DNA of 33,699 nt, from positions 1 through 33,699 of the forward strand of contig JAAZKX010000063.1 in assembly GCA_012799605.1 (NCBI GenBank), in the 5' to 3' direction. This stretch comes from Bacillota bacterium (GTDB lineage Bacteria; Bacillota; DTU030; DUMP01). The position numbers were made by a program, and so were the translations under genes. Shown piece by piece: positions 3,995 to 32,623 of the stretch. The notes beneath the pieces are model-generated. The model did not search any database. It saw nothing but the letters and a program-made list of their open reading frames with translations, and was not told the origin of the DNA. Every line of letters starts with the position of its first letter. The stretch's first letter is position 1.

Positions 3995-4252
3995 ATGTCA
4001 GCCGAACTTCAGTCCGATATTTCTCCATTGGCACAGCTTCCACCCGCTGCAGAAGCGGAAATCATAAACCTCAACATCGAGGGCCAGCAAAAGCGGCGCC
4101 TACTCGATCTGGGTTTTGTTCCGGGGACCAAAATCAAAGTCGCCTTCCCTAGTCCGCTTGGCGACCCCAAAGCTTATCAGATCCGGAACACCCTGTTAGC
4201 ACTAAGAGATGCTGAAGCCGTCTCCATTATGGTAAGGAGGCTAGATCCATGA
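3995..4252 (+). CDS. feoA: ferrous iron transport protein A (FeoA)
   Basis: An 85-residue SH3-like FeoA protein, the small cytosolic partner of the FeoB ferrous iron transporter. The core RRLLDLGFVPGTKIKV and the following PLGDPKAYQIRNTLLALR match the family well. The start is the ATG at 3995, preceded by GGGGTGA at 3984-3990; an in-frame TTG at 3968 has no ribosome site. Its TGA overlaps the ATG of the next gene (ATGA), so feoA and the FeoB GTPase gene are translationally coupled. Confidence 0.93.
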   Translation: MSAELQSDISPLAQLPPAAEAEIINLNIEGQQKRRLLDLGFVPGTKIKVAFPSPLGDPKAYQIRNTLLALRDAEAVSIMVRRLDP

Positions 4253-4995
4253 TGAATCTGCAGCGTCCCCTCGTTGCCCTGGCCGGTAATCCCAACACAG
4301 GCAAGAGCACCGTCTTTAATTCCCTCACCGGCCTCAATCAACATACCGGGAACTGGCCCGGAAAAACAGTTGTTACCGCCTCAGGTACCTTTACCTGGGC
4401 CGGCACCACATTTACCATAATAGACCTGCCGGGCACGTATTCTTTAGTTGCCCATTCGCCCGATGAAGAAGCAGCCCGCGATTTCCTGCTTCTCAATACC
4501 CCTGATGTGACAGTAGTGGTTGTCGATGCCTGCTGTTTGGAACGGAATCTCAACCTAGCCCTCCAAGTGCTGGAAATCACACCCAAAGCAGTGTTATGCG
4601 TAAACTTGATGGACGAAGCCCGCCGGCGCGGCCTGAGTATAGATGCCAGCCGGTTGGCCCTCGAGCTGGGTATACCGGTAGTACCTTGCACTGCCCGTAG
4701 CGGTGAGGGCTTATCAGCCTTAAAAGACGCCATTGGGCGTATTGCTACCGGACAGATAGCCACATCCCCGCGTATTGTCGATTATAACCCCCGGTTAGAA
4801 AGCCGTTTGGCAATTATCGCCTCCCAGTTGACCCCGCTGTCGCCACAGCTGTCCCCCCGCTGGGTAGCGTTGCGGTTATTGGAGCGAAACCAATCCTTAT
4901 TACAACTGCTGACCAGGAACCAAGCCGAGCCCTTGCCTCCAAGCGGAATCATCTCCTGTAGCGGTACCGATGAGGTGGTTACATGGTTAAATTAA
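4249..4995 (+). CDS. feoB: FeoB N-terminal GTPase protein (split FeoB)
   Basis: A 248-residue protein that equals the cytosolic G domain and part of the helical GDI domain of FeoB. G motifs: GNPNTGKS (residues 13-20), DLPG (59-62), NLMD (119-122) and a TARSGEG stretch near 150. A full-length FeoB would continue into the membrane domain, but here the frame ends at 4993-4995. The rest is encoded by the next gene, which starts 10 bases before this stop in another frame. AGGAGG lies upstream of the double ATG. Together the two halves total about 707 residues, a normal FeoB length, so nothing seems lost. Confidence 0.92.
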   Translation: MMNLQRPLVALAGNPNTGKSTVFNSLTGLNQHTGNWPGKTVVTASGTFTWAGTTFTIIDLPGTYSLVAHSPDEEAARDFLLLNTPDVTVVVVDACCLERNLNLALQVLEITPKAVLCVNLMDEARRRGLSIDASRLALELGIPVVPCTARSGEGLSALKDAIGRIATGQIATSPRIVDYNPRLESRLAIIASQLTPLSPQLSPRWVALRLLERNQSLLQLLTRNQAEPLPPSGIISCSGTDEVVTWLN

Positions 4996-6362
4996 CACCG
5001 CAACAAATGACAGCTTTACAACGGGCTTGGCAGCAGGCCGATGGCATGCCAATAGCTTCTTCGGATGAGATAGTCCATGATATTTTTGCTACCGCCCAAA
5101 CCATCGCCGCCAACTCCGTCCGTAAAACAGGTCCGGCCCGGATTAGCTGGCAACAGAGCTTGGACCGGATCCTTACCTCCCGCCTGCTTGGTTTCCCACT
5201 GATGCTCCTTCTCCTGGCCGCAGTGTTTTGGCTATCCATCGAGGGAGCGGAGTACCCGTCAAAGTTCCTGTTTGCCCTCTTTAACACCGGCGAACAGTTC
5301 CTTAGCAACCTGCCCGGGCTCAATGCCCACCCCTGGCTATACGGCTTTTTTATCCAGGGTATCTACCGGTCTACTGGCTGGGTCATCGCCGTCATGCTTC
5401 CACCTATGGCTATATTCTTCCCTCTGTTTACCCTGCTGGAGGATCTCGGTTACCTGCCGCGCATCGCTTTCAATCTCGACCGGCTATTTCAAAGAGCCGG
5501 CGGGCATGGCAAGCAAGCCCTTACCATGTGCATGGGCTTCGGCTGCAACGCTGCCGGTGTAATTTCCTGCCGGATCATCAATTCTCCCCGCGAGCGGTTG
5601 GTAGCCATTCTCACCAATACTTTCGCCCCCTGTAATGGCCGGTTCCCCACTTTCTTCGCCCTCAGCAGCATCTTTTTAAGTAGCGCTTATTACAGCTTTG
5701 GATCCAGTTTGTTAGTTTCAGTCAGTATAGTCACCCTGGTTCTCATTGGTATCGCCGCTACCTTTTTGACAACGTGGCTGCTGACGCACACCATCCTCAA
5801 AGGCGTTCCCAGCGCATTTTTACTTGAGCTGCCCCCGTACCGGCCGCCGCAAGTGGGGCAGATAATCGTCCGCTCCATTTTTGATCGTACCATACAAGTC
5901 CTGGTAAGAGCGATTGTGTGGGCGGCCCCGGCCGGGGCTATCACTTGGCTGCTTGCTAACACCTACTCTGGTTCCGAAAGTTTATTGACCCTAACAGCCG
6001 CTTATTTAGATCCGGTGGCCCGTTTGTTGGGGTTGGACGGCATTATTTTGCTCGCTTTTTTTCTCGGCTTGCCGGCCAACGAAATTGTTCTGCCAATCAT
6101 GCTAATGGGCTACCTGTCGGCAGGGGCCCTGTTATGGCCCGACAGCCTGCCGCTACTGCAAAAGCTGTTAATAGCCAACGGATGGACTGTAAAGACGGCT
6201 GTATTTGTAATGTTGTTTTCCCTTCTGCACTTTCCCTGCAGCACAACCTTATGGACGATTTTCAAAGAAACCGGCAGCAAATTATGGACGGCGGCAGCCT
6301 TCCTGATGCCAACAGCATTAGCTTGCAGCCTACTGTTCGTTCTTAACCTATGGCTGCCCTAG
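4983..6362 (+). CDS. feoB: FeoB membrane (permease) half of split FeoB
   Basis: A 459-residue polytopic membrane protein corresponding to the end of the GDI domain plus the two Gate regions of FeoB, the Fe(II) permease. Family signatures include CMGFGCNAAGVISCRII, NTFAPCNGRFPTFF and LLHFPCSTTLWTIFKETGS. These Cys residues lie where FeoB proteins carry conserved pore cysteines. The ATG at 4983 has its own site GAGGTGG at 4972-4978 with a 4-base gap, inside the end of the upstream gene. A plausible start with its own ribosome site argues for a real split gene rather than a sequencing frameshift. Both halves should assemble in the cytoplasmic membrane with FeoA. Confidence 0.92.
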   Translation: MVKLTPQQMTALQRAWQQADGMPIASSDEIVHDIFATAQTIAANSVRKTGPARISWQQSLDRILTSRLLGFPLMLLLLAAVFWLSIEGAEYPSKFLFALFNTGEQFLSNLPGLNAHPWLYGFFIQGIYRSTGWVIAVMLPPMAIFFPLFTLLEDLGYLPRIAFNLDRLFQRAGGHGKQALTMCMGFGCNAAGVISCRIINSPRERLVAILTNTFAPCNGRFPTFFALSSIFLSSAYYSFGSSLLVSVSIVTLVLIGIAATFLTTWLLTHTILKGVPSAFLLELPPYRPPQVGQIIVRSIFDRTIQVLVRAIVWAAPAGAITWLLANTYSGSESLLTLTAAYLDPVARLLGLDGIILLAFFLGLPANEIVLPIMLMGYLSAGALLWPDSLPLLQKLLIANGWTVKTAVFVMLFSLLHFPCSTTLWTIFKETGSKLWTAAAFLMPTALACSLLFVLNLWLP

Positions 6363-12439: not shown

Positions 12440-13399
12440 TCAAAGAGCCAACACTGCTGCCAGGTCATAAAGCGACTGATCCAGCCGTTTACTGGCAGCA
12501 AACAACCGCGAAAAAGGAACCATTTCAATTCGCCCGGCTGCAAAAGTAGCCGCTCCCGCCCGCTCACCGGCCAGTAGCGCTTCTACCGCCCGGGCCCCCA
12601 TCCGGCTGGCCAAAATTCGGTCAAACGCCGATGGGGCACCTCCTCGCTGCAGATGACCCAGTACTATTACTCTGGTGTCAAAGCCGGTTCGTTTCTTTAC
12701 CTCTTCGCCTAATGTATAAGCTGAAGCCACCCCTTCAGCTACCAGAATGATGCTGTGCGTTTTCCCCCGCTCGGCCCCGCATTGTAAGCGTTCGCAGATA
12801 TCAACCAGATCGAACGGAATCTCGGGCACCAATATGGATTCAGCCCCTCCGGCCAAGCCAGCCATCAGGGCGATATGTCCTGAAGCCCGGCCCATCACCT
12901 CCACCACAAAAGTTCGTTCATGGGCCGAGGCTGTGTCTCTGATCTTATTCATAGCGTCAACTACCGTATTCAAAGCCGTGTCAAAGCCGATGCTAGTATC
13001 AGTACAAGGGATATCGTTATCGATAGTGCCCGGCACCCCCACCACTTTAATCCCCCGTTTTGCTAGCGCAGCCCCGCCACGGAAGGTGCCCTCACCACCA
13101 ATAACAACCAGGCCTTCTATACCCTCGCTTTTCAGGTTGGCAGCTCCCAGATCCTGCCCGGCTGCCGTCAGGAAACAATCGCAACGGGCACTTCTGAGCA
13201 CCGTTCCCCCGTGTTGAATAATGCCGTCTACCGAGCATAGATCCAATTCCAAAAAATCCCGCTCTAGCAGGCCCTGAAAACCATGCTTGATACCTATAGT
13301 TGTCAGCCGGCGGTCAGCCGCCTGATGAACCGCAGCCCGGATAGCGGCATTCATTCCCGGGGCATCTCCCCCGCTAGTAAGAACTGCAATTTTACGCAC
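12440..13399 (-). CDS. pfkA: ATP-dependent 6-phosphofructokinase
   Basis: A 319-residue glycolytic phosphofructokinase (fructose-6-phosphate + ATP to fructose-1,6-bisphosphate). Motifs: TSGGDAPGMNAAIR (8-21), PGTIDNDI (123-130, catalytic Asp127), MGRASGHIAL and LGHLQRGGAPSAFDR. Gly at position 104 in GGEGT (101-105) and Gly124 in PGTIDND point to ATP rather than pyrophosphate as donor. The usual Asp103 is Glu, a conservative change. The start is GTG with AAGGTGA upstream. It lies 18 bases after the cupin isomerase-like gene, so the two probably share a transcript. Confidence 0.95.
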   Translation of the reverse strand: MRKIAVLTSGGDAPGMNAAIRAAVHQAADRRLTTIGIKHGFQGLLERDFLELDLCSVDGIIQHGGTVLRSARCDCFLTAAGQDLGAANLKSEGIEGLVVIGGEGTFRGGAALAKRGIKVVGVPGTIDNDIPCTDTSIGFDTALNTVVDAMNKIRDTASAHERTFVVEVMGRASGHIALMAGLAGGAESILVPEIPFDLVDICERLQCGAERGKTHSIILVAEGVASAYTLGEEVKKRTGFDTRVIVLGHLQRGGAPSAFDRILASRMGARAVEALLAGERAGAATFAAGRIEMVPFSRLFAASKRLDQSLYDLAAVLAL

Positions 13400-13417: not shown

Positions 13418-14188
13418 TTAGGGCGGACATAAGCTGGGATCAGTAAGATAATTAAATAAATCTGGTTGGTTAATAAACGCCTCGTATAGTGTAACCCCTT
13501 TGACCAAACCTAAATCCCGATACTGGCGGGCTAGTCGCCGCTGCAGTTGAGGAATATAATCATAATAGGGATTAGCAATAAAAGTGGATACCCCTTGCAC
13601 TCGCACCTCATAATAAACAGCGCCGGCCGATCGGGTAAATTGTTCCGCTAATGGAGAAAAACCATTAGCCACCCAGTTGGCGGTTACCAGCGTTTCATTA
13701 GCCGGGTTAATCAGCACCAAACCCCAGTTAGGCGGAACAACTACCTTATCGCCGCTGTTAGCCTCAATCAACACTACCTCTTCAACCGAGTTTAACTCCG
13801 GGTCGAGGTACTGCATCAAAAAATGGGCTTGCCCCTGCGCTACTTCATACACTTCCGGGTAAGCCTCATCCGATCCCGCCGCTGTCGGATTATAATGACC
13901 GCTGGTTTTAACGTATTCCGGTCCGATTAAAGCCGGTGGCATTATGGTAATATCATACCGCAAGCCGTGGCGCTTTATAAGTTCCTGGTCTTTTTGTTTA
14001 CAAACGCCGCGATAGATAAAATAAAGCTGCTGTTTGGAGTCCACCGCCGCCGGTGCATAAAACAGGTCCCGCATATCTCCGGCTAAACATATCGTCGGGT
14101 CCACCGGCTCCATGGTTGCTCCAAAGCGCAGCTCCGTTCCCTCCAGGGCTAATGGCAGGGCTGTATTGGCTGATAAATCAATCTGCAT
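13418..14188 (-). CDS. cupin-type glucose-6-phosphate isomerase homologue, metal site altered
   Basis: A 256-residue protein with the GPI cupin domain (archaeal-type phosphoglucose isomerase). The core is recognisable: VKTSGHYNP, YPEVYEVAQGQAHFLMQ and GDKVVVPPNWG. In the characterised archaeal enzyme the metal is held by His-x-His, Glu and a later His. Here only His98 and Glu112 remain: the second His is Asn100, and the His after PPxW is Leu157. Activity as an isomerase is therefore doubtful; it may use an altered site or act as a sugar-phosphate binding protein. The C-terminal region after about residue 180 is an extension beyond the compact archaeal enzyme. Start ATG 14188 has AAGGGGG about 9 bases upstream; a GTG at 14197 overlaps that site. 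Confidence 0.78.
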   Translation of the reverse strand: MQIDLSANTALPLALEGTELRFGATMEPVDPTICLAGDMRDLFYAPAAVDSKQQLYFIYRGVCKQKDQELIKRHGLRYDITIMPPALIGPEYVKTSGHYNPTAAGSDEAYPEVYEVAQGQAHFLMQYLDPELNSVEEVVLIEANSGDKVVVPPNWGLVLINPANETLVTANWVANGFSPLAEQFTRSAGAVYYEVRVQGVSTFIANPYYDYIPQLQRRLARQYRDLGLVKGVTLYEAFINQPDLFNYLTDPSLCPP

Positions 14189-14222
14189 AGATAACACCCC
14201 CTTCCATTGGTCTTTAAAATAG

Positions 14223-14302: not shown

Positions 14303-15223
14303 TTACTCCCCAGCTTCACCGTTAACCCCCGGTTCATCCCAACCCAGCCGGTCAGCCAGAGGAGGTAGCAGCAACATCTGCCCCGGAACCAACTTTCGGG
14401 CATTGTCAATTTGGTTATAGTCTAAAATATAGCCATAGTAGGATCCCCGGCCATAATAGCGTTCGCTGATCCCCCACAATGTATCATTTGGTTCCACGAT
14501 ATGGACGATTTCTTCGGCCGGATAGTCGGCCGTACTCTCCAGCGCCGGCTCCGGGGATGGGGGAAGCGGATCAGGCAACCCCGGTTGCTCGTCATCGGGC
14601 AGCCCCGACAATTCTGTCAACTGATCGCCACCAGCCGGCTCCGATGGTTCCTTAAGCCAACGCCAAAGGCCGGTACCGGCGGCTGCTAGCAAAACCAGCA
14701 ATGCCAACGAAGCTAACAACCGTTTAGGATTTACCAACCGGTAACGGCTGCCGGGCAAACCCGTCGGGATCAGCTCGTAGTGATGCCTGCTTGGGCCGCC
14801 CTGATAGGGAAGAAGCTCGCCCTCATCATCATAAACATAAATTGCTTCTTCTTTTAGCACCGGATCTGATACCAAAGATATCTGCCAGGGCCAAGGAAAG
14901 TTCGTTTTATGCACGCCGATATCATAGCTGGATAAAAAGGCTCCCAACCCATTATGGGTGTGGAACCAGCCCACCACCTCGAAGGTGGGATATTCCGCCT
15001 CCGCCTGGCGGGTAAGATCAGCCACCAAAGCAGGCGTCAAACGGATGCTACTGCCGACTGAATCAGCCTTCTGGGCTAAGATAGCCGCTTCAACCCGAAC
15101 GCGCTGGACGAAATCGCCGCGGCGCTGGACACAGCCTAACAAGATGCCTCCTATTTCTTTACCTTCCTGCCGGGACCAAATACCGATTTGGCTCTTTACC
15201 ACCTGGGCTATATGAACCCTCAT
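14303..15223 (-). CDS. JAMM/MPN metalloprotease domain, one TM segment, LysM domain
   Basis: A 306-residue protein of unusual design. Residues 1-155 are an MPN/JAB domain with a complete JAMM zinc motif: Glu23, His88-Thr-His90, then Ser98 and Asp101 in the HxHx7SxxD spacing. JAMM enzymes remove ubiquitin-like proteins or cleave small sulfur-carrier fusions. Residues 168-187 form a single membrane helix preceded by NPKR, so the JAMM part should be cytoplasmic. A Pro/Glu/Asp-rich linker (190-235) leads to a LysM domain (239-288, VEPNDTLWGISERYYG..LVPGQMLLLP) placed outside to bind peptidoglycan. The start at 15223 is fixed by AAGGAGGAG 7 bases upstream; the 40-residue in-frame extension has none. 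It is divergent from the ribU leader. The substrate is unknown. Confidence 0.85.
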   Translation of the reverse strand: MRVHIAQVVKSQIGIWSRQEGKEIGGILLGCVQRRGDFVQRVRVEAAILAQKADSVGSSIRLTPALVADLTRQAEAEYPTFEVVGWFHTHNGLGAFLSSYDIGVHKTNFPWPWQISLVSDPVLKEEAIYVYDDEGELLPYQGGPSRHHYELIPTGLPGSRYRLVNPKRLLASLALLVLLAAAGTGLWRWLKEPSEPAGGDQLTELSGLPDDEQPGLPDPLPPSPEPALESTADYPAEEIVHIVEPNDTLWGISERYYGRGSYYGYILDYNQIDNARKLVPGQMLLLPPLADRLGWDEPGVNGEAGE

Positions 15224-15350
15224 GGCCGCTCTCCTCCTTGCCAGTCCAGCCGGCCGCGGTTTTGGGCTTAAATTTTCGCGCTTTACACTGTATTCGTTAC
15301 CGGCCCTTGAATCCCTGCCGCTTAAGTCGAAAAACTCCGCCAAAGGCAGC

Positions 15351-16238: not shown

Positions 16239-19200
16239 TTAGGTGCGATGAATGCGCTGGCGGACAGCCTCCGGTATGAGCTCGGCCACAGTAGCTGAAG
16301 CCAGGCAAAGATACGTATCGGAGGCTCCGTAATAACAGAGCACTTCATCATCATCATCGAGCAGCTCCTTATCCGTTCCCGCTACCGCGCCACAGGTAAA
16401 AACCACATTCGGTACCCATGAATGACCCGGCGCACCGATCTCATGCTCAGTCTCCGGGGACAAAACCGGATTAGGCGATCGGTACAGCAGCCGGCCCGGG
16501 TTATTAAGATCGGCCAAAATAACTCCCAACCGGTAGACCATCGTGTTGCTGACCCCATGATAAATAAGCAGCCACCCGTATTTGGTCTTAATCGGCTGAG
16601 CGCCGGCCCCAATCTTAAACGAATCCCACATCAGCCCTGAACGTGGGCCCATAATAATTTTGTGGTTTTCCTTGGGCCAAGGCAACTGCAGTTCGTCAGC
16701 ATAAGATACCCAGATGCTGGGCTCAACCCGATGGTACATCACCCAGCGGCCATCAATCTGTTCTGGAAATAATACCGCATCTTTATCCCACAAACCGGGA
16801 AAAGCCAAACCCAAATGTTCAAAACGATTAAAGCGGCGGGCTAAAAAATCATCGACATCGATAGCAGCTGCGGCTATTTGAGCAACAACACCATCGTAGG
16901 CTGTGTAGACCATATACAGGCGGTCATCGATTACTACCACCCGCGGGTCCTCACAACCGTGGCTTTCTTCGGGAATCAAGGGGCCGAAAATTGGTTCCGG
17001 CAACCGTTCCAGCAACCGGGCTCCGTCAAAAATCGCCAGCCCGATTCGGGATATTTCATCCTGGCCATAAGCCCGGTAAAGCACATATACCTTGCCTTCT
17101 AACCGTACCGCAGCAGCATTAAATACATAGCGGTTTTCCCAAAGATGGTCTTCTAGCGGCGTCAACAACGGGTTTAGCTCGTGCCGGACCAGTTCTCCCG
17201 CCGGCGGATAAGAATCTACATCCTGCATCAATACTACTTCCTCATGCGCCGGGCTACGAACAACAGCATCGAGCAAGCTGGTAGCCTCCCGTCCCTGCCC
17301 GATACGCTTGGCTACTTCGAGCATAATATCGCGAGATTCGAAACCCATCTCTTTATAAATTTCCTCCAGCAAATCATGGTGGAACCAGTCGCGCTCAATG
17401 CGGGCTGATAGCGGCGTAGGAATGCCGCGGCCGCCGCGGAAGCTGTAGCTAGCCCAGGTCCAGGCCGAACAGGGGATAAACGTTCCGTCAGCTAAGGTTA
17501 AACTGAGGCCATAACCTTTAGCCAGCAGCTCCAATAGCCGCGCATCCTCGATTTGGCCTTTCTTTTTCAGTTGTTGTTGTAAAAACAAAAACCGCTGGGT
17601 AAGTTTCCGTTGATGCCAGTTTTGGAAGATGTTGGCGGCCGAAAAAACCTCCCGCCCCCGGTGCTTGATAACCGAATTGACTAGTTCTAAACCAAACCCT
17701 TTGTGTCCGCGGGCATACGTTTGCCAGATATAAGAATAGTGCTCGGCTTCAATCAAAATCTTAGCTACATGGGTAAAATAACGCAGTTTGGGGAACCGGC
17801 CCCCTAACCCCTTAGGCAAGTTGCTGGCCGTAAGGCGTGCTGCTAACCGGTCAAAATGAGAAATGTCCCTCAGCTCGCCGACCCCGGGGAAGTTCTCCGG
17901 TGTAAATATTAGCGACCCCATCTCAGCCTCTTCCAGACTATCGGGGCGAAGGTTGTCCCCTAGCCACCACAGCAGCCGGTCGGTATACTCTCGTTCCTCA
18001 CTGATTCCCGCCAGAGCCAAGGCATCGCGAACACTATGGTGGCTGAGCAATTCCCCAGTGCTGGAATAACCTAGCCGGATCAATAAATTCATCGGCGGAA
18101 ATTCGACCAACAGGCGGCGCAGAACCTCTTCCTTGACTGCTAAAATCTTACGGTGGGGGATCAGTTCAAATACCCGTTCCACTACCTGCCCGGTTCCCTC
18201 AGCTGTCGATAAATCCCCCGGCAGCAGCCGTTCCGCCATCTGCTCCAGCCGCTCCATAAACTTCTCCAGCTCAAGACCCACCTGGCCCGGTGACAAATTT
18301 TCGGCTAACCCCAAATCGTCATGAATAAACCGGTGAAAAGCAGCACTATATCGTTCTTCAAGGCGCCGAAAGACTCTTTTTGTCCGGATCGGCAGCCCGC
18401 CGATACCGGCCAAATCCCTGGGTAGTGCCACCGGCACCCCCGGGATAAATTCTAAGTAATCGAGCGGAGTAATCAGCGGGCGGGTCTCTTCCGCCTGTTC
18501 CACCCAGGACTTAATAAATGCGCCCTTGCGGTTTAAAAACTCCGCCACCTGATCTTTGCGCAACCGCTCAGCCTGGCCATAGACCAGTTCTTGCCGATCA
18601 AACTGTTTCAGATCAGCGCTCAGATGGGAAAACTGGTTCATATCACCGATAAAGGAAGCCAGCCGCCCGTGATAAAGCGTTTTTAAGCCTTCGATGATGT
18701 CCTCGGTTTTTTCATCAACAGAAAATGCATAGGCCTGAAGAAAACTGTAAACAACTGTACTCCAGAGCTGGGCATCAAAGCCAACCTGTTTATCGGCTTC
18801 ACGGGCCACGTTTTCCACCGCAGCATAAGCCTCTTGGGACAGCACCCGGGACAATAAAGAACTGTACTGATCAAATCCCTGGGCAAAACTGGCCGCATGA
18901 TCCCCTAAATGGCAGCTGAGCTCAGGCGCCCGGCCACGGGTCTCCAGCCCATAAATATCCGGCTGTTTTAAGATTAGCTGTGATTTAAGCCAATAATCTT
19001 CATTGGCTTTAATGCAGTCAAACAGTGCCCGCACCAGCTGCTTAAACACAAAAACGCGTTTACTCATAGCCGGCGGATCGACTTTGGCCCCGAGGCTAAC
19101 CTGGCAAATTTTTTTATCCCATACAGCTGCTTGAGCCAATAGCCATGGATCGACACCGTAGCCGCCGAGTCCGCCATACCACCAATCCAAATCAGTACAG

Positions 19201-19808
19201 CAATCCTCTGCAAACCGGCGTGAAATCCCATACAATCCGCTCAAAGGATCGCGTAAACGTAAACCAAAAAATACTTCCAGTAAAGGACCGACAAAAAAAC
19301 TCCCGGTCGGATCTTCGAAGTAATGGCGGCGAAAGCAGCCAGTTACCAAATCATAATCCTGCAGCAGCGGAAAATATAATCGCTCTAACCACGAGGGCCG
19401 AAATCCAAATTCGCCCCGTTTTTTTAGATCAGCTTCGAGCAAAACCACATGGGCAGCCAGCCCCCGGGCGATCTCCAGTATAGCCCGGATACTAAAACCC
19501 CGTCCGTTAATCTCTGGCTTCAACAAGAATCCATGCCACGGCACCCCAACATTTAGTCCCTTCAATGCCGCTAGTGCTTGGGCTCCGGCCGGATCGCCGA
19601 CACATACTATCAAGGGTTTGATATTGAGAAACGGGCTCAACCCTTGCGCCGCAGTAGTTACTACTTGGGCCAAGGTTTCTTGCTCGTTATAAAAAGGCAC
19701 ACCTATCACAACGTCAATACTTTTGTAGGGCGCGATTTTTTTCAGTTCCCGGTTTAAGCTATTTTGAAACAGCTCTTCTTTGGTACGCAGTTCTTGAATA
19801 TCCAGCAT
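16239..19808 (-). CDS. fused retaining GT-A glycosyltransferase and GH130 phosphorylase-like protein
   Basis: A 1189-residue three-part protein. Residues about 28-260 are a GT-A glycosyltransferase domain: VVIGVPFYNEQETLAQVV, EAD (125-127) in the DXD position, DPLSG (187-191) and GYGVD (216-220), a pattern like glucosyl-3-phosphoglycerate/mannosylglycerate synthases. Residues about 260-875 are mostly helical and match nothing I recognise. Residues about 876-1185 are a GH130 five-bladed propeller (NPLLTP, HGCEDPRVVVID with the EDPR catalytic region near 953, GAGAQPIKT, YRLGVILADL, CYYGASDTYL); known GH130 members phosphorolyse beta-mannosides. No signal peptide is seen, so it is cytoplasmic. 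A joint role in making and recycling an intracellular mannoside or mannan-like glycan is inference. Start 19808 has GGGGAGGG close upstream; ATG 19859 lacks one. Confidence 0.82.
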   Translation of the reverse strand: MLDIQELRTKEELFQNSLNRELKKIAPYKSIDVVIGVPFYNEQETLAQVVTTAAQGLSPFLNIKPLIVCVGDPAGAQALAALKGLNVGVPWHGFLLKPEINGRGFSIRAILEIARGLAAHVVLLEADLKKRGEFGFRPSWLERLYFPLLQDYDLVTGCFRRHYFEDPTGSFFVGPLLEVFFGLRLRDPLSGLYGISRRFAEDCCTDLDWWYGGLGGYGVDPWLLAQAAVWDKKICQVSLGAKVDPPAMSKRVFVFKQLVRALFDCIKANEDYWLKSQLILKQPDIYGLETRGRAPELSCHLGDHAASFAQGFDQYSSLLSRVLSQEAYAAVENVAREADKQVGFDAQLWSTVVYSFLQAYAFSVDEKTEDIIEGLKTLYHGRLASFIGDMNQFSHLSADLKQFDRQELVYGQAERLRKDQVAEFLNRKGAFIKSWVEQAEETRPLITPLDYLEFIPGVPVALPRDLAGIGGLPIRTKRVFRRLEERYSAAFHRFIHDDLGLAENLSPGQVGLELEKFMERLEQMAERLLPGDLSTAEGTGQVVERVFELIPHRKILAVKEEVLRRLLVEFPPMNLLIRLGYSSTGELLSHHSVRDALALAGISEEREYTDRLLWWLGDNLRPDSLEEAEMGSLIFTPENFPGVGELRDISHFDRLAARLTASNLPKGLGGRFPKLRYFTHVAKILIEAEHYSYIWQTYARGHKGFGLELVNSVIKHRGREVFSAANIFQNWHQRKLTQRFLFLQQQLKKKGQIEDARLLELLAKGYGLSLTLADGTFIPCSAWTWASYSFRGGRGIPTPLSARIERDWFHHDLLEEIYKEMGFESRDIMLEVAKRIGQGREATSLLDAVVRSPAHEEVVLMQDVDSYPPAGELVRHELNPLLTPLEDHLWENRYVFNAAAVRLEGKVYVLYRAYGQDEISRIGLAIFDGARLLERLPEPIFGPLIPEESHGCEDPRVVVIDDRLYMVYTAYDGVVAQIAAAAIDVDDFLARRFNRFEHLGLAFPGLWDKDAVLFPEQIDGRWVMYHRVEPSIWVSYADELQLPWPKENHKIIMGPRSGLMWDSFKIGAGAQPIKTKYGWLLIYHGVSNTMVYRLGVILADLNNPGRLLYRSPNPVLSPETEHEIGAPGHSWVPNVVFTCGAVAGTDKELLDDDDEVLCYYGASDTYLCLASATVAELIPEAVRQRIHRT

Positions 19809-19879
19809 AAACCCTCCCCATTGTACTTTGGTCAAGATAGCGGTTATATGTTTCCCCAATTCCAGCAGTCTAACAATAA

Positions 19880-19901
19880 AAAAAGCCCGGTTATCCCGGG
19901 C
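19880..19901 (-). terminator. intrinsic terminator of the GntR gene
   Basis: GCCCGG (19885-19890) and CCGGGC (19896-19901) with a 5-base loop; on the minus strand followed by TTTTTTT. It lies 11 bases after the regulator stop and separates it from the GT/GH130 gene. Confidence 0.88.
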
Positions 19902-19912
19902 GTTGGACTGCC

Positions 19913-20599
19913 TTAACTTTTTTTCTCCTGCTGGGCGGAATACATTAGCATATTTTGTCGAGCTTGCCGCATATGGTCAGCCATTAATTCTTTGGCTAAC
20001 TCGGAGTTGCCGTCTGCTACAGCGGCGAGAATATGCCTGTGTTCTCGGACCGAGACGCTGATCCGCCCCGGAACCCGTAGGGAGCGGAAGCGGGCTTGTT
20101 CTACATAATCCAGCATCCCGCCCAGGGCATAACGGAGCGATTTACTTCGGCTGGCATCGAGCAACAACCGGTGGAAATCCGTGTCCAAAACGGTAAGCTG
20201 CTCGACATCATTTTTAGCCGCATAAAATTCTTGCAGATCCAAAATTTCCTCGGCCTTTTTAATTTCTTCTGGGCGAATTTTTTGCGCGGCCCATTCCGCC
20301 GCCAGCGCTTCTAAATATTCACGAATAAGGAAAATATCCTTTACATCCTGGGCAGTTATTCCCTCCACCAGCACGCCCCGATTAGGCAGGTATTTCACCA
20401 ACCCTTCCAGCTCCAGCTGCCTTAGGGCTTCCCTGATCGGTGTCCGACTCACACCATAAAGATCGGCCAATTTCAGCTCGACCAGGCTTTCCCCTGGTTC
20501 AAACCGTCCTTTGAGGATATCATCCCGCAGCTGGGAAAAAATGCTTCTTCTGAGTACCGTTGAGCCCCCCTGACGGCGACCACTTCCACGTCCAGCCAA
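19913..20599 (-). CDS. GntR-family transcriptional regulator, FadR/FCD type
   Basis: A 228-residue regulator. The N-terminal winged helix (IFSQLRDDILKGRFEPGE, GVSRTPIREALRQLE, GLVKYLPNRGVLV) is followed by an FCD ligand domain with the metal-site residues visible in DTDFHRLLLDA, EHRHILAAV and ADHMRQAR. FCD regulators bind small carboxylates or sugar acids; the ligand here is not known. The start is taken as TTG at 20599, because GGGAGGGG lies 6 bases upstream; the longer in-frame GTG at 20671 has no such site. It is followed by a terminator. Palindromes of the type bound by this family occur 400 bases upstream at the promoter of the small ORF. Confidence 0.9.
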   Translation of the reverse strand: MAGRGSGRRQGGSTVLRRSIFSQLRDDILKGRFEPGESLVELKLADLYGVSRTPIREALRQLELEGLVKYLPNRGVLVEGITAQDVKDIFLIREYLEALAAEWAAQKIRPEEIKKAEEILDLQEFYAAKNDVEQLTVLDTDFHRLLLDASRSKSLRYALGGMLDYVEQARFRSLRVPGRISVSVREHRHILAAVADGNSELAKELMADHMRQARQNMLMYSAQQEKKS

Positions 20600-20740
20600 T
20601 CTTATCCCCTCCCAGTCTTGGATCCTCAATGTATAATTACAGTCCGGCTCATCAATAAAAGACGCTGCCACTTATAATTGTACGTGATGTCTACAGTTAC
20701 CGCAAGAACAAAGCCGGGTAGAAAAATTCTTCTTTACCAA

Positions 20741-30387: not shown

Positions 30388-30475
30388 ATAAGATAAATAG
30401 TAACTGGCCGGGGCGGTAATAAAGGCAGGAAAGTTTGGGCCAGATCGCGAACTGTGTAGCGAGGTGGTGCCATAT

Positions 30476-32623
30476 ATGCCGCATGAGGGTGAAGTTTTGG
30501 CTTTGGATATCGGTACAAGGACCATCATGGGTGTAGTGCTGGAAAAAGCCCCGAACGGGTACCGCATCCGAGCGGCCGAACAATTTGAGCATCAGGACCG
30601 GGCTATGTACCAAGGCCAGGTTCATGATGTGCTGGCCGTAGCCGAAAGCGTCAAGAAACTAAAGACCGTTTTAGAGCGGCGCCGGAAAAAAACCTTCGAA
30701 CGAGCTGCTGTGGCTGCTGCCGGTCGCTCGCTTAAAATGTCAGCCGGTCAGGCCCGGCGGCGGCGAAATAGCCTGGCGGCGGTAACAGCGGCCGAGATCG
30801 AACTTTTGGAGCTGGAGGCGCTGCGGGCGGCCCAGGCTCAGCTAGTTAGCGCGGAAGGCGAAGCGGCGGCGGTTGGTTTCTTCTGCGTTGGCTATAGTAC
30901 CAGCCGCTATTTGCTGGACGGTGAGCCTATTTCCGAGCTGCGGGGACAGGTATGTGCGGAAATCGGGGTGGAGTTAATCGCAACCTTTTTACCCCGGGTA
31001 GTGGTCAACGCTTTGCTTTCAGTGTTAAAGCATGCTGAGTTGGAGCCGGCCAGCCTAACTTTGGAACCGATTGCCGCTTTGGAAGCATCTGTTCCGGCCG
31101 GTATGCGCCAGCTCAATCTAGCCTTGCTGGATATCGGCGCCGGTACTACCGATATTGCTTTGGTGCGCCGGGGACGCGTTTTTGCTTACGGGATGGCCCC
31201 GCTGGCCGGCGATAAAATCACTGATGCAATTTGCCAGAAATATTTGCTCGATTTTGCTGTGGCCGAAGCTGTCAAAAAAAAGCTGGCACAGCAAGATGAG
31301 GTTACTTTCACCGATATTTTAGGAAACAAACAGCGGCTAGCCAGCGAACGTATTATCGCTTCCTTGAGCGAACTTATCGAGCAAATGGCTGCCGATATTG
31401 CCGCTCAGGTTTTATCTTTAAACGGTGGCCGGCCGGACGCAGTCCTTCTTGTAGGCGGTGGCAGCCTTACGCCCGGCTTTCCCCAAGCATTGGCTGACGC
31501 AATGGAACTACCCCAATCGCGGGTAGGGATCCGCACCCGCGAAATGATCACTACAGTAACCGGGCAGTCAAAAAAACTGGGCGGGCCCCAAGGGGTGACC
31601 CCGCTGGGGATTGCCATGACTGCTTTTGGATCCGGACCACTTCATTTTGTCGATGTTACCGTAAACGGTCAGCCCGTACCGCTGTGGCAGGGAGCCGGCC
31701 AGACAGTAGCTGATGCCCTGCTGGCAGCCAGCGGCAGCTGGACTCATTTGTTCGGGCGGCCCGGGTTGGCTCTGACGGTAGAAATAAACGGCCGGCTGAA
31801 AGTTATCCCCGGGGAGCAGGGCCAGTCGCCGCATATTTTGGTTAACGGACAGCCTGCCGCTTTAGATACCGTGCTTAGCCCAGGTGCCAAGATCGAATTT
31901 ACTCCCGGAAAACATGGTCGTCCAGCTCAGGCGCTGGTACGCGATCTGATTGCAGAAGGCCGTACTATAACAATAAACGGAAAAAGCTACCCTTTCCCGG
32001 CGGCGGTTTACCTTAATGGGCACCCGGCTGATTTGGATGCCAAGGTACCCGATCGCGCCTGTGTGACCATAGATTGGGAGCAGCCGCTTGCGGAAATACT
32101 TATGGCTACCGGGGTAGATCCGGCCCAGCTCAAAAAAGAAGATATCCCCTACCGGTTGGGCGCAAAGCAACATGTTTTCTCCTTTTGTCCCTGCCAGGTC
32201 AGCGTAAATGGCCGGGCTGCATCGTTGACCGAGCTGGTCCGCCCCGGCGATACAATCGAATACGTACTAAACCGCCCCAGGCCTACGGTGGGATCAGTCC
32301 TAGCGGCTCACATGGTACCCAAGCCGCCGCTGGTCATCGCCGTAAACGGACAGGAGCTGAAGCTGCCGGCCAGCGGAACTGAGATCCTGGTCAGCGGCAG
32401 GCCAGCCCGGGCTGAAGATCCGCTCGAGCCGGGGGCGGAAATCACCCTGATTCCCGGACGGTCAGATTATATTGTCAGCGATTTGTTCGCATTGATCGAT
32501 GTGAAAAAACAAGCTGTGCCCGGTGGTAAATTAGACATGCTTATCAATGGCAAACCAGCTACCTTTACCACTCCTTTGGGCCCCGGCGACCAAGTAACCC
32601 TGGTTTGGAACCAAAAGATGTAA
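30476..32623 (+). CDS. FtsA-like ATPase with C-terminal run of beta-grasp-like modules
   Basis: A 715-residue actin-fold protein. The ATPase part (residues 6-385) shows phosphate-1 ALDIGTRTIMGVV (9-21), phosphate-2 LLDIGAGTTDIALV (217-230) and the adenosine motif LLVGGGSLTPGF (324-335), as in FtsA/PilM. The 330-residue C-terminal part is a chain of modules with a repeated NG signature (396, 437, 456, 500, 513, 577, 623, 690), most followed by L..LxPGDxIxxxxG, like small beta-grasp/ubiquitin-like folds. No membrane anchor helix is evident. Normal FtsA is about 420 residues with an amphipathic end, so this is not canonical FtsA. Start ATG 30476 follows GAGGTGG by 8 bases. A role at the envelope or in division is inference. 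Confidence 0.82.
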   Translation: MPHEGEVLALDIGTRTIMGVVLEKAPNGYRIRAAEQFEHQDRAMYQGQVHDVLAVAESVKKLKTVLERRRKKTFERAAVAAAGRSLKMSAGQARRRRNSLAAVTAAEIELLELEALRAAQAQLVSAEGEAAAVGFFCVGYSTSRYLLDGEPISELRGQVCAEIGVELIATFLPRVVVNALLSVLKHAELEPASLTLEPIAALEASVPAGMRQLNLALLDIGAGTTDIALVRRGRVFAYGMAPLAGDKITDAICQKYLLDFAVAEAVKKKLAQQDEVTFTDILGNKQRLASERIIASLSELIEQMAADIAAQVLSLNGGRPDAVLLVGGGSLTPGFPQALADAMELPQSRVGIRTREMITTVTGQSKKLGGPQGVTPLGIAMTAFGSGPLHFVDVTVNGQPVPLWQGAGQTVADALLAASGSWTHLFGRPGLALTVEINGRLKVIPGEQGQSPHILVNGQPAALDTVLSPGAKIEFTPGKHGRPAQALVRDLIAEGRTITINGKSYPFPAAVYLNGHPADLDAKVPDRACVTIDWEQPLAEILMATGVDPAQLKKEDIPYRLGAKQHVFSFCPCQVSVNGRAASLTELVRPGDTIEYVLNRPRPTVGSVLAAHMVPKPPLVIAVNGQELKLPASGTEILVSGRPARAEDPLEPGAEITLIPGRSDYIVSDLFALIDVKKQAVPGGKLDMLINGKPATFTTPLGPGDQVTLVWNQKM

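Follow-up and report, generated by a model that had tools for sequence, protein, structure and literature searches.

Members of GH130 act on beta-mannosides (PMC4264767); their acid is probably an Asp, beta-1,2 specificity is determined by a lysine, and phosphate is bound by basic residues (PMC4599007); phosphorylases are recognised by the catalytic Asp together with the phosphate-binding basic residues, in place of which GH130 hydrolases have Glu. Described settings for such chemistry are the published Thermoanaerobacter cluster Teth514_1785-1789 and the beta-1,2-mannan reserve known from Leishmania (both PMC4264767), an organism whose GT108/MTP mannogen phosphorylase-synthases use a five-bladed propeller phosphorylase on beta-mannosides (PMC8950772). 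Among transferases, GT78 is a retaining family, and mannosylglycerate synthase (MGS) and GpgS share conserved residues, namely an acid (Glu232 in GpgS, Asp192 in MGS) and a His serving as metal ligand (His258 and His217, respectively; PMC2581804). Chains uniting a transferase and a phosphorylase are documented for the CGS layout (PMC10834661, PMC11842490). Here, we describe a gene within a 33,699-nucleotide stretch of DNA (hereafter, the window) whose product joins a GT78-like module, a middle domain (MID) and a GH130 module. No description of a GT-GH130 fusion was found in the open-licence literature, and no characterised family with this architecture, the existence of which would have undone the first-pass annotation, was found.

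Reading frame and surroundings of the fusion gene

The open frame of the fusion gene lies on the minus strand (16239-19859, 1206 aa from a TTG). Judged from the sequence, the ATG at 19808 is the likelier start (1189 aa, with the end coordinate given earlier), since it is preceded by the RBS-like GGGGAGGG; residues are counted from this ATG unless stated otherwise. The full-length homologues are 36-79% identical and spread over 11 family codes, and the nonsynonymous/synonymous ratio (in measurable pairs) is 0.03-0.11 in most modules, while the GT part of certain pairs goes up to 0.31. Thus, the modules are under constraint and, given the range of homologues, the frame is not a chance one. In some pairs the GT part is less constrained (0.13-0.31) than the GH130 part (0.03-0.09).

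Pfam recognised only GH130 over threshold and GT2 below it (E 0.17), and AlphaFold2 modelled the protein in full (alignment of 41 full-length homologues) with a mean pLDDT of 85.5 and a pTM of 0.74. The three parts previously proposed for this polypeptide (GT-A, middle and GH130) are real, but the middle comprises about 425 residues (~443-868) and not 600, because the MGS-like module takes in the helices that follow its GT-A core; standalone homologues of 413-428 aa align with residues ~41-452 of the 1206-aa frame.

Table 1. Features of the fusion gene and its upstream region (window coordinates)
Feature	Coordinates	Strand	Remarks
Whole gene, 1189 aa	16239..19808	-	Open frame extends to TTG 19859; RBS-like GGGGAGGG precedes ATG
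RBS-like GGGGAGGG	19812..19819	-	
GT78 (mannosylglycerate synthase)-like module, residues 1-442	18483..19808	-	GT-A core (~30-245) plus helical C-terminal part; Foldseek, GpgS profile, standalone homologues
EAD motif E125-A126-D127, DxD equivalent	19428..19436	-	D127 retained in 31/41 homologues
Middle domain (MID), residues 443-868	17205..18482	-	No known family or fold; seen in this architecture only
MID signature CSAWTWASYSFRGGRGIPTPLSARIERDWFHHDLLE, residues 781-815	17364..17468	-	Invariant W783, W785, G792, G793, P797, E805, W808, F809
GH130 module, residues 870-1189	16242..17201	-	Pfam, NCBIfam, Foldseek, Teth514_1789 alignment
GH130 EDPR motif (E953-D954), catalytic Asp954	16941..16952	-	Invariant 41/41; aligns with Teth514_1789 EDPR
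Intrinsic-terminator-like hairpin and T run, between GntR/FCD gene and fusion gene	19885..19901	-	
GntR/FCD regulator, directly upstream of fusion gene	19913..20671	-	Pfam

At four further loci in the window's family the fusion gene likewise has a GntR/FCD regulator as its neighbour. The two genes are separated by the hairpin listed in Table 1 (the region holds ten terminator-like sites vs 7.5 expected), and therefore one shared transcript may not apply. Elsewhere in the window we noted a single protein that combines a LysM domain at its C-terminus with a protease domain of JAB/MPN type and what seems to be a hydrophobic segment (14303-15343, minus strand), as well as a cupin-type (PF06560) glucose-6-phosphate isomerase (13418-14197, minus strand) adjoining a phosphofructokinase-like (PfkA-like) gene (12440-13399). 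The latter was read from its sequence, as were a FeoB-like transporter apparently split into overlapping GTPase/permease frames (4249-4995 and 4983-6362, plus strand) and an FtsA/pilus-ATPase-like protein with a long C-terminal run of small repeated segments (30464-32623, plus strand).

The three modules

The N-terminal module has the fold of the whole GT78 enzyme: Foldseek against the PDB recovered mannosylglycerate synthase (2y4j, E 4.4e-12, TM by target 0.72; 2bo4, TM by target 0.73), with a match spanning essentially all 377-380 MGS residues, the helical C-terminal part included. A GpgS profile matched the module at 2.6e-4; Pfam MGS_GT did not match the window protein at E<=10 nor the 41 family members at E<=1, and reached 1e-4 (22.3 bits, below the cut-off of 27 bits) with a standalone GT relative. 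The EAD (125-127) and DPLSG (187-191) motifs, which the first-pass annotation had listed with its GT-A assignment, were confirmed by sequence, and the assignment itself by Foldseek; PFYNE (E42) and GRG are likewise retained. The donor site, the lack of which would have spoken against the first-pass reading, is preserved in part: of the metal-binding Asp and His and the acid-Lys-acid ion network expected of mannosylglycerate synthases, E125, D127 and R103 (in GRG, replacing Lys) are present, but the His metal ligand and the second acid are absent from the window protein and from nearly the whole fusion family (the acid partner position is Leu192 in the window and hydrophobic in most fusions). 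Standalone GT relatives keep acid and His at both positions. Ten of the 41 homologues have lost the metal-binding Asp127 (seven of them belonging to a single clade of eight), and three genomes (G072, G332 and G110) encode two fusion copies each, one with and one without it; paired copies of this kind lie at loci L061/L062, L064/L065 and L058/L059. In one pair without Asp127 the GT part has a nonsynonymous/synonymous ratio of 0.04, and was therefore retained for a reason, perhaps a structural one.

The MID was modelled confidently on its own (pLDDT 89, pTM 0.87) and is mostly helical, as first described, but contains some strands too. Profile searches and structure prediction, both suggested earlier as checks, thus returned a confident fold with no known family or PDB match. 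Foldseek against the PDB gave as its best hit a designed protein (E 0.042, prob 0.20, TM <0.2), which is no credible match, and viral models (BFVD) gave none; no family was recognised in Pfam (41 full-length members searched), NCBIfam (41 MIDs), PHROGs (two) or by sequence/profile search of the PDB. Credible homology with a known family was thus not found by sequence, profile and fold searches (the last covering PDB and viral models). No relationship with GH189 or any glycosidase was detectable by PDB fold search, and profile comparison of the MID with the GT4-partner family (see below) and with the GT module yielded nothing credible. The MID was absent from viral contigs, and the plasmid matches listed for the full protein span the GH130 part only (23-28% of the query).

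The same three-part architecture, which the first-pass annotation had proposed to look for in other genomes, occurs in 48 of the 399 genomes sampled from the phylum. A profile search of these 399 recovered 55 strong MID matches, separated from the rest by a gap (nothing between E ~6e-119 and 0.04), and all 55 were situated in three-part frames or in contig-edge fragments of such frames; a MID alone or with another partner was not found down to the next match at E 0.04. Nineteen MID residues do not vary across the 41 homologues; they include E453, E604, E805, W783, W785, W808 and F809, and many are concentrated in the signature CSAWTWASYSFRGGRGIPTPLSARIERDWF. The MID is therefore a 425-residue family with a confident predicted fold, unmatched in the PDB and the searched family libraries, that recurs across one phylum and is tied to one enzyme chemistry.

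The C-terminal part is a full GH130, as had been proposed, by Pfam (PF04041, 4.9e-53, 180.6 bits vs a threshold of 26), by the NCBIfam beta-1,2-mannobiose phosphorylase model (NF052550, 2.9e-69, 233.7 bits, under the cut-off of 450) and by Foldseek, which supported the five-bladed propeller and placed Teth514_1788 (1,2-beta-oligomannan phosphorylase) first (E 1.7e-22, TM 0.85 by target). By these scores the module is a relative of the NF052550 equivalog and not a member. Twelve residues are invariant in 41/41 homologues (N897, R912, E953, D954, K1009, H1026, R1027, R1056, K1065, H1084, D1154 and D1164), and the motifs around them align with Teth514_1789. The catalytic Asp, whose absence would have counted against the first-pass reading, is thus in place, and D954, K1009, K1065 and H1084, which we equate by alignment and spacing with the residues of PMC4599007, are those expected of a phosphorylase. 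Hence, the module is probably a competent phosphorylase, with a presumed specificity for beta-1,2-mannosides. In a quick tree (some branches long) built from 41 fused GH130s and 16 standalone ones, the former made up one clade (SH-aLRT 99), and the simplest reading is that the fusion family had one origin.

Genomic setting and possible roles

Mannose metabolism, the setting anticipated for the fusion family, was borne out by its neighbourhoods. In 38 fusion loci, GT4-type genes or the partner occurred in 25, phosphomannomutase in 17 and ManC (GDP-mannose pyrophosphorylase) in 15, and at one locus (L050) the neighbouring GT4 carries a mannose-6-phosphate isomerase domain. At genome level, the GT4-partner family was found in 42 of 48 carriers vs 47 of 351 others (Fisher p 2e-25). 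For ManC the counts were 41 of 48 and 127 of 351, respectively (p 8e-11). Both comparisons are hand tallies that ignore shared ancestry; outside the window's family both ManC and the GT4 partner reach 39/40 carriers. There is also a family of ~340-aa proteins with a conserved GYTxDDNARAL motif, paired with or fused to GT4 (L051:4185-5201, L049:11581-12603, L127, L128); those of its members that were scanned matched nothing in Pfam or NCBIfam. Among the 47 partner-bearing non-carriers, 17 have a standalone GH130 within ~6 kb of the GT4 partner (hand count); eleven such loci hold GH130, GT4 and partner, several with a sugar-1-phosphate nucleotidyltransferase, and one (L122) has ABC-transporter-like genes. 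Considering that a similar GT4/partner cluster contains a standalone GH130, the fusion appears to occupy the place of the latter.

The window's genus departs from this pattern. Neither ManC nor a GT4 partner was found in the window genome (92.5% complete) and two congeners, in which PF00483 is represented by GlmU alone and one PGM/PMM-type protein occurs. Within the window's family, the closed genome G003 has ManC, phosphomannomutase and GT4 in one cluster, as does G006; in this one genus of the family the cluster (L118 and L119, respectively) lies away from the fusion gene. The GC content of the G003 cluster (0.655) is ordinary for the genome (0.63-0.66 at other loci), and therefore loss of the cluster in binning as an island of odd composition is not suggested, with incomplete MAGs remaining a caveat. 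Apparently, the window's genus lacks GDP-mannose synthesis and the GT4 pair and still keeps the fusion gene; thus, the pathway setting of the other carriers may not extend to it. Should the absence be real, the enzyme of this genus would do without GDP-mannose, for example by reverse phosphorolysis from mannose-1-phosphate or on scavenged glycans.

In the reading that we favour, with a probability of about one half, the fusion protein would be an enzyme of three modules that works in the cytoplasm on intracellular mannose glycans with beta-1,2 linkages. By homology, its GH130 module would reversibly phosphorolyse beta-1,2-oligomannan (mannan(n) + Pi <-> mannan(n-1) + mannose-1-phosphate) and so trim or extend the chain. 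The MID, with its three invariant glutamates and Trp-rich signature, may be a new glycan-handling domain, possibly a catalytic one (transglycosylating or chain-holding). Where its metal site is intact, the GT78-like module could use an alpha-linked sugar to start or cap the glycan; in the lineages that lost the site it would be a structural pseudo-transferase. In most carriers, the co-occurring ManC and phosphomannomutase would provide GDP-mannose as the source of the mannose units, with a partner GT4 as its user. Points against this model are the NCBIfam score (234/450 bits), a MID without detectable glycosidase kinship, co-occurrence tests that ignore shared ancestry and a window's genus apparently without GDP-mannose synthesis and the GT4 pair. 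The fusion may be part of a mannose-glycan pathway not described so far, and a bacterial beta-1,2-mannan reserve, if real, would help explain the role of GH130 phosphorylases where the organism has no known source of 1,2-beta-oligomannan.

A less probable role, to which we give perhaps half the credence of the intracellular glycan enzyme, is salvage, in which imported or foreign beta-1,2-mannosides would be phosphorolysed to mannose-1-phosphate for GDP-mannose, the GT and MID being regulatory or scaffolding parts. The closest GH130s, Teth514_1788/1789, have been interpreted in this manner (PMC4264767), and the like gene set with standalone GH130, together with the transporter-like genes at L122, would fit; however, the conserved annotated neighbours of the fusion are genes of GDP-mannose synthesis and a GT4 carrying a mannose-6-phosphate isomerase domain rather than recognised importers, and no GDP-mannose step to feed was found in the window's genus.

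The first-pass annotation had proposed that the GT builds a mannoside (from GDP-mannose onto glycerate or similar) that GH130 recycles within one polypeptide. This agrees with the GT78 fold match, the EAD and GRG motifs and the co-occurrence of ManC in most carriers, but it was weakened to the point of being improbable: a retaining GT yields alpha linkages and GH130 takes beta ones, and therefore one end, if the GT is active and retaining, is unlikely to form the bond that the other breaks; moreover, the metal Asp of the GT is lost in 10/41 homologues whereas the checked GH130 residues are invariant, and GDP-mannose pyrophosphorylase was not found in the window's genus. Comparably doubtful is a mixed glycan, to which the GT would add a non-mannose sugar, which the MID would handle and from which GH130 would remove (or to which it would add) one terminal beta-mannose cap: the only nucleotidyltransferase found in the window's genus being of UDP-GlcNAc type (GlmU) and two GT residues differing from MGS/GpgS speak for it, and the association with ManC in 39/40 other carriers against.

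Comparison with known systems

The GT78-like module shares the EAD, PFYNE and GRG elements with mannosylglycerate synthase (GT78; 2BO4/2Y4J) and glucosyl-3-phosphoglycerate synthase (GT81), and resembles MGS in the fold of the whole module (TM ~0.72-0.73) at ~15% identity, but lacks the Glu/Asp partner and the His metal ligand of MGS/GpgS, with the metal Asp lost in about a quarter of the homologues. The order of transferase, middle and inverting phosphorylase in one chain is common to the fusion and the CGS-type layout; they differ in the sugar and in the transferase (GT78-like, not GT84), and homology between their middle domains was not found. The GT108/MTP enzymes of Leishmania are single-module and eukaryotic, and the fusion GH130 is like them in its five-bladed propeller phosphorylase and presumed action on beta-mannosides.

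By both sequence and fold the GH130 module is closest to the two Thermoanaerobacter beta-1,2-mannoside phosphorylases Teth514_1789 (7FIP) and Teth514_1788 (9FJ8), acting on beta-1,2-mannobiose and 1,2-beta-oligomannan (36-38% identity, TM 0.83-0.86 by target), and has the EDPR, NKD/DKD, HR, KIG and YHG positions in common with Teth514_1789. The loci of the phylum that combine standalone GH130, GT4, partner and a ManC-type gene resemble the Teth514_1785-1789 cluster (PMC4264767). While Teth514_1788/1789 are free enzymes of ~300 aa, the fusion GH130 is the C-terminal part of a 1189-aa protein and forms a clade of its own.
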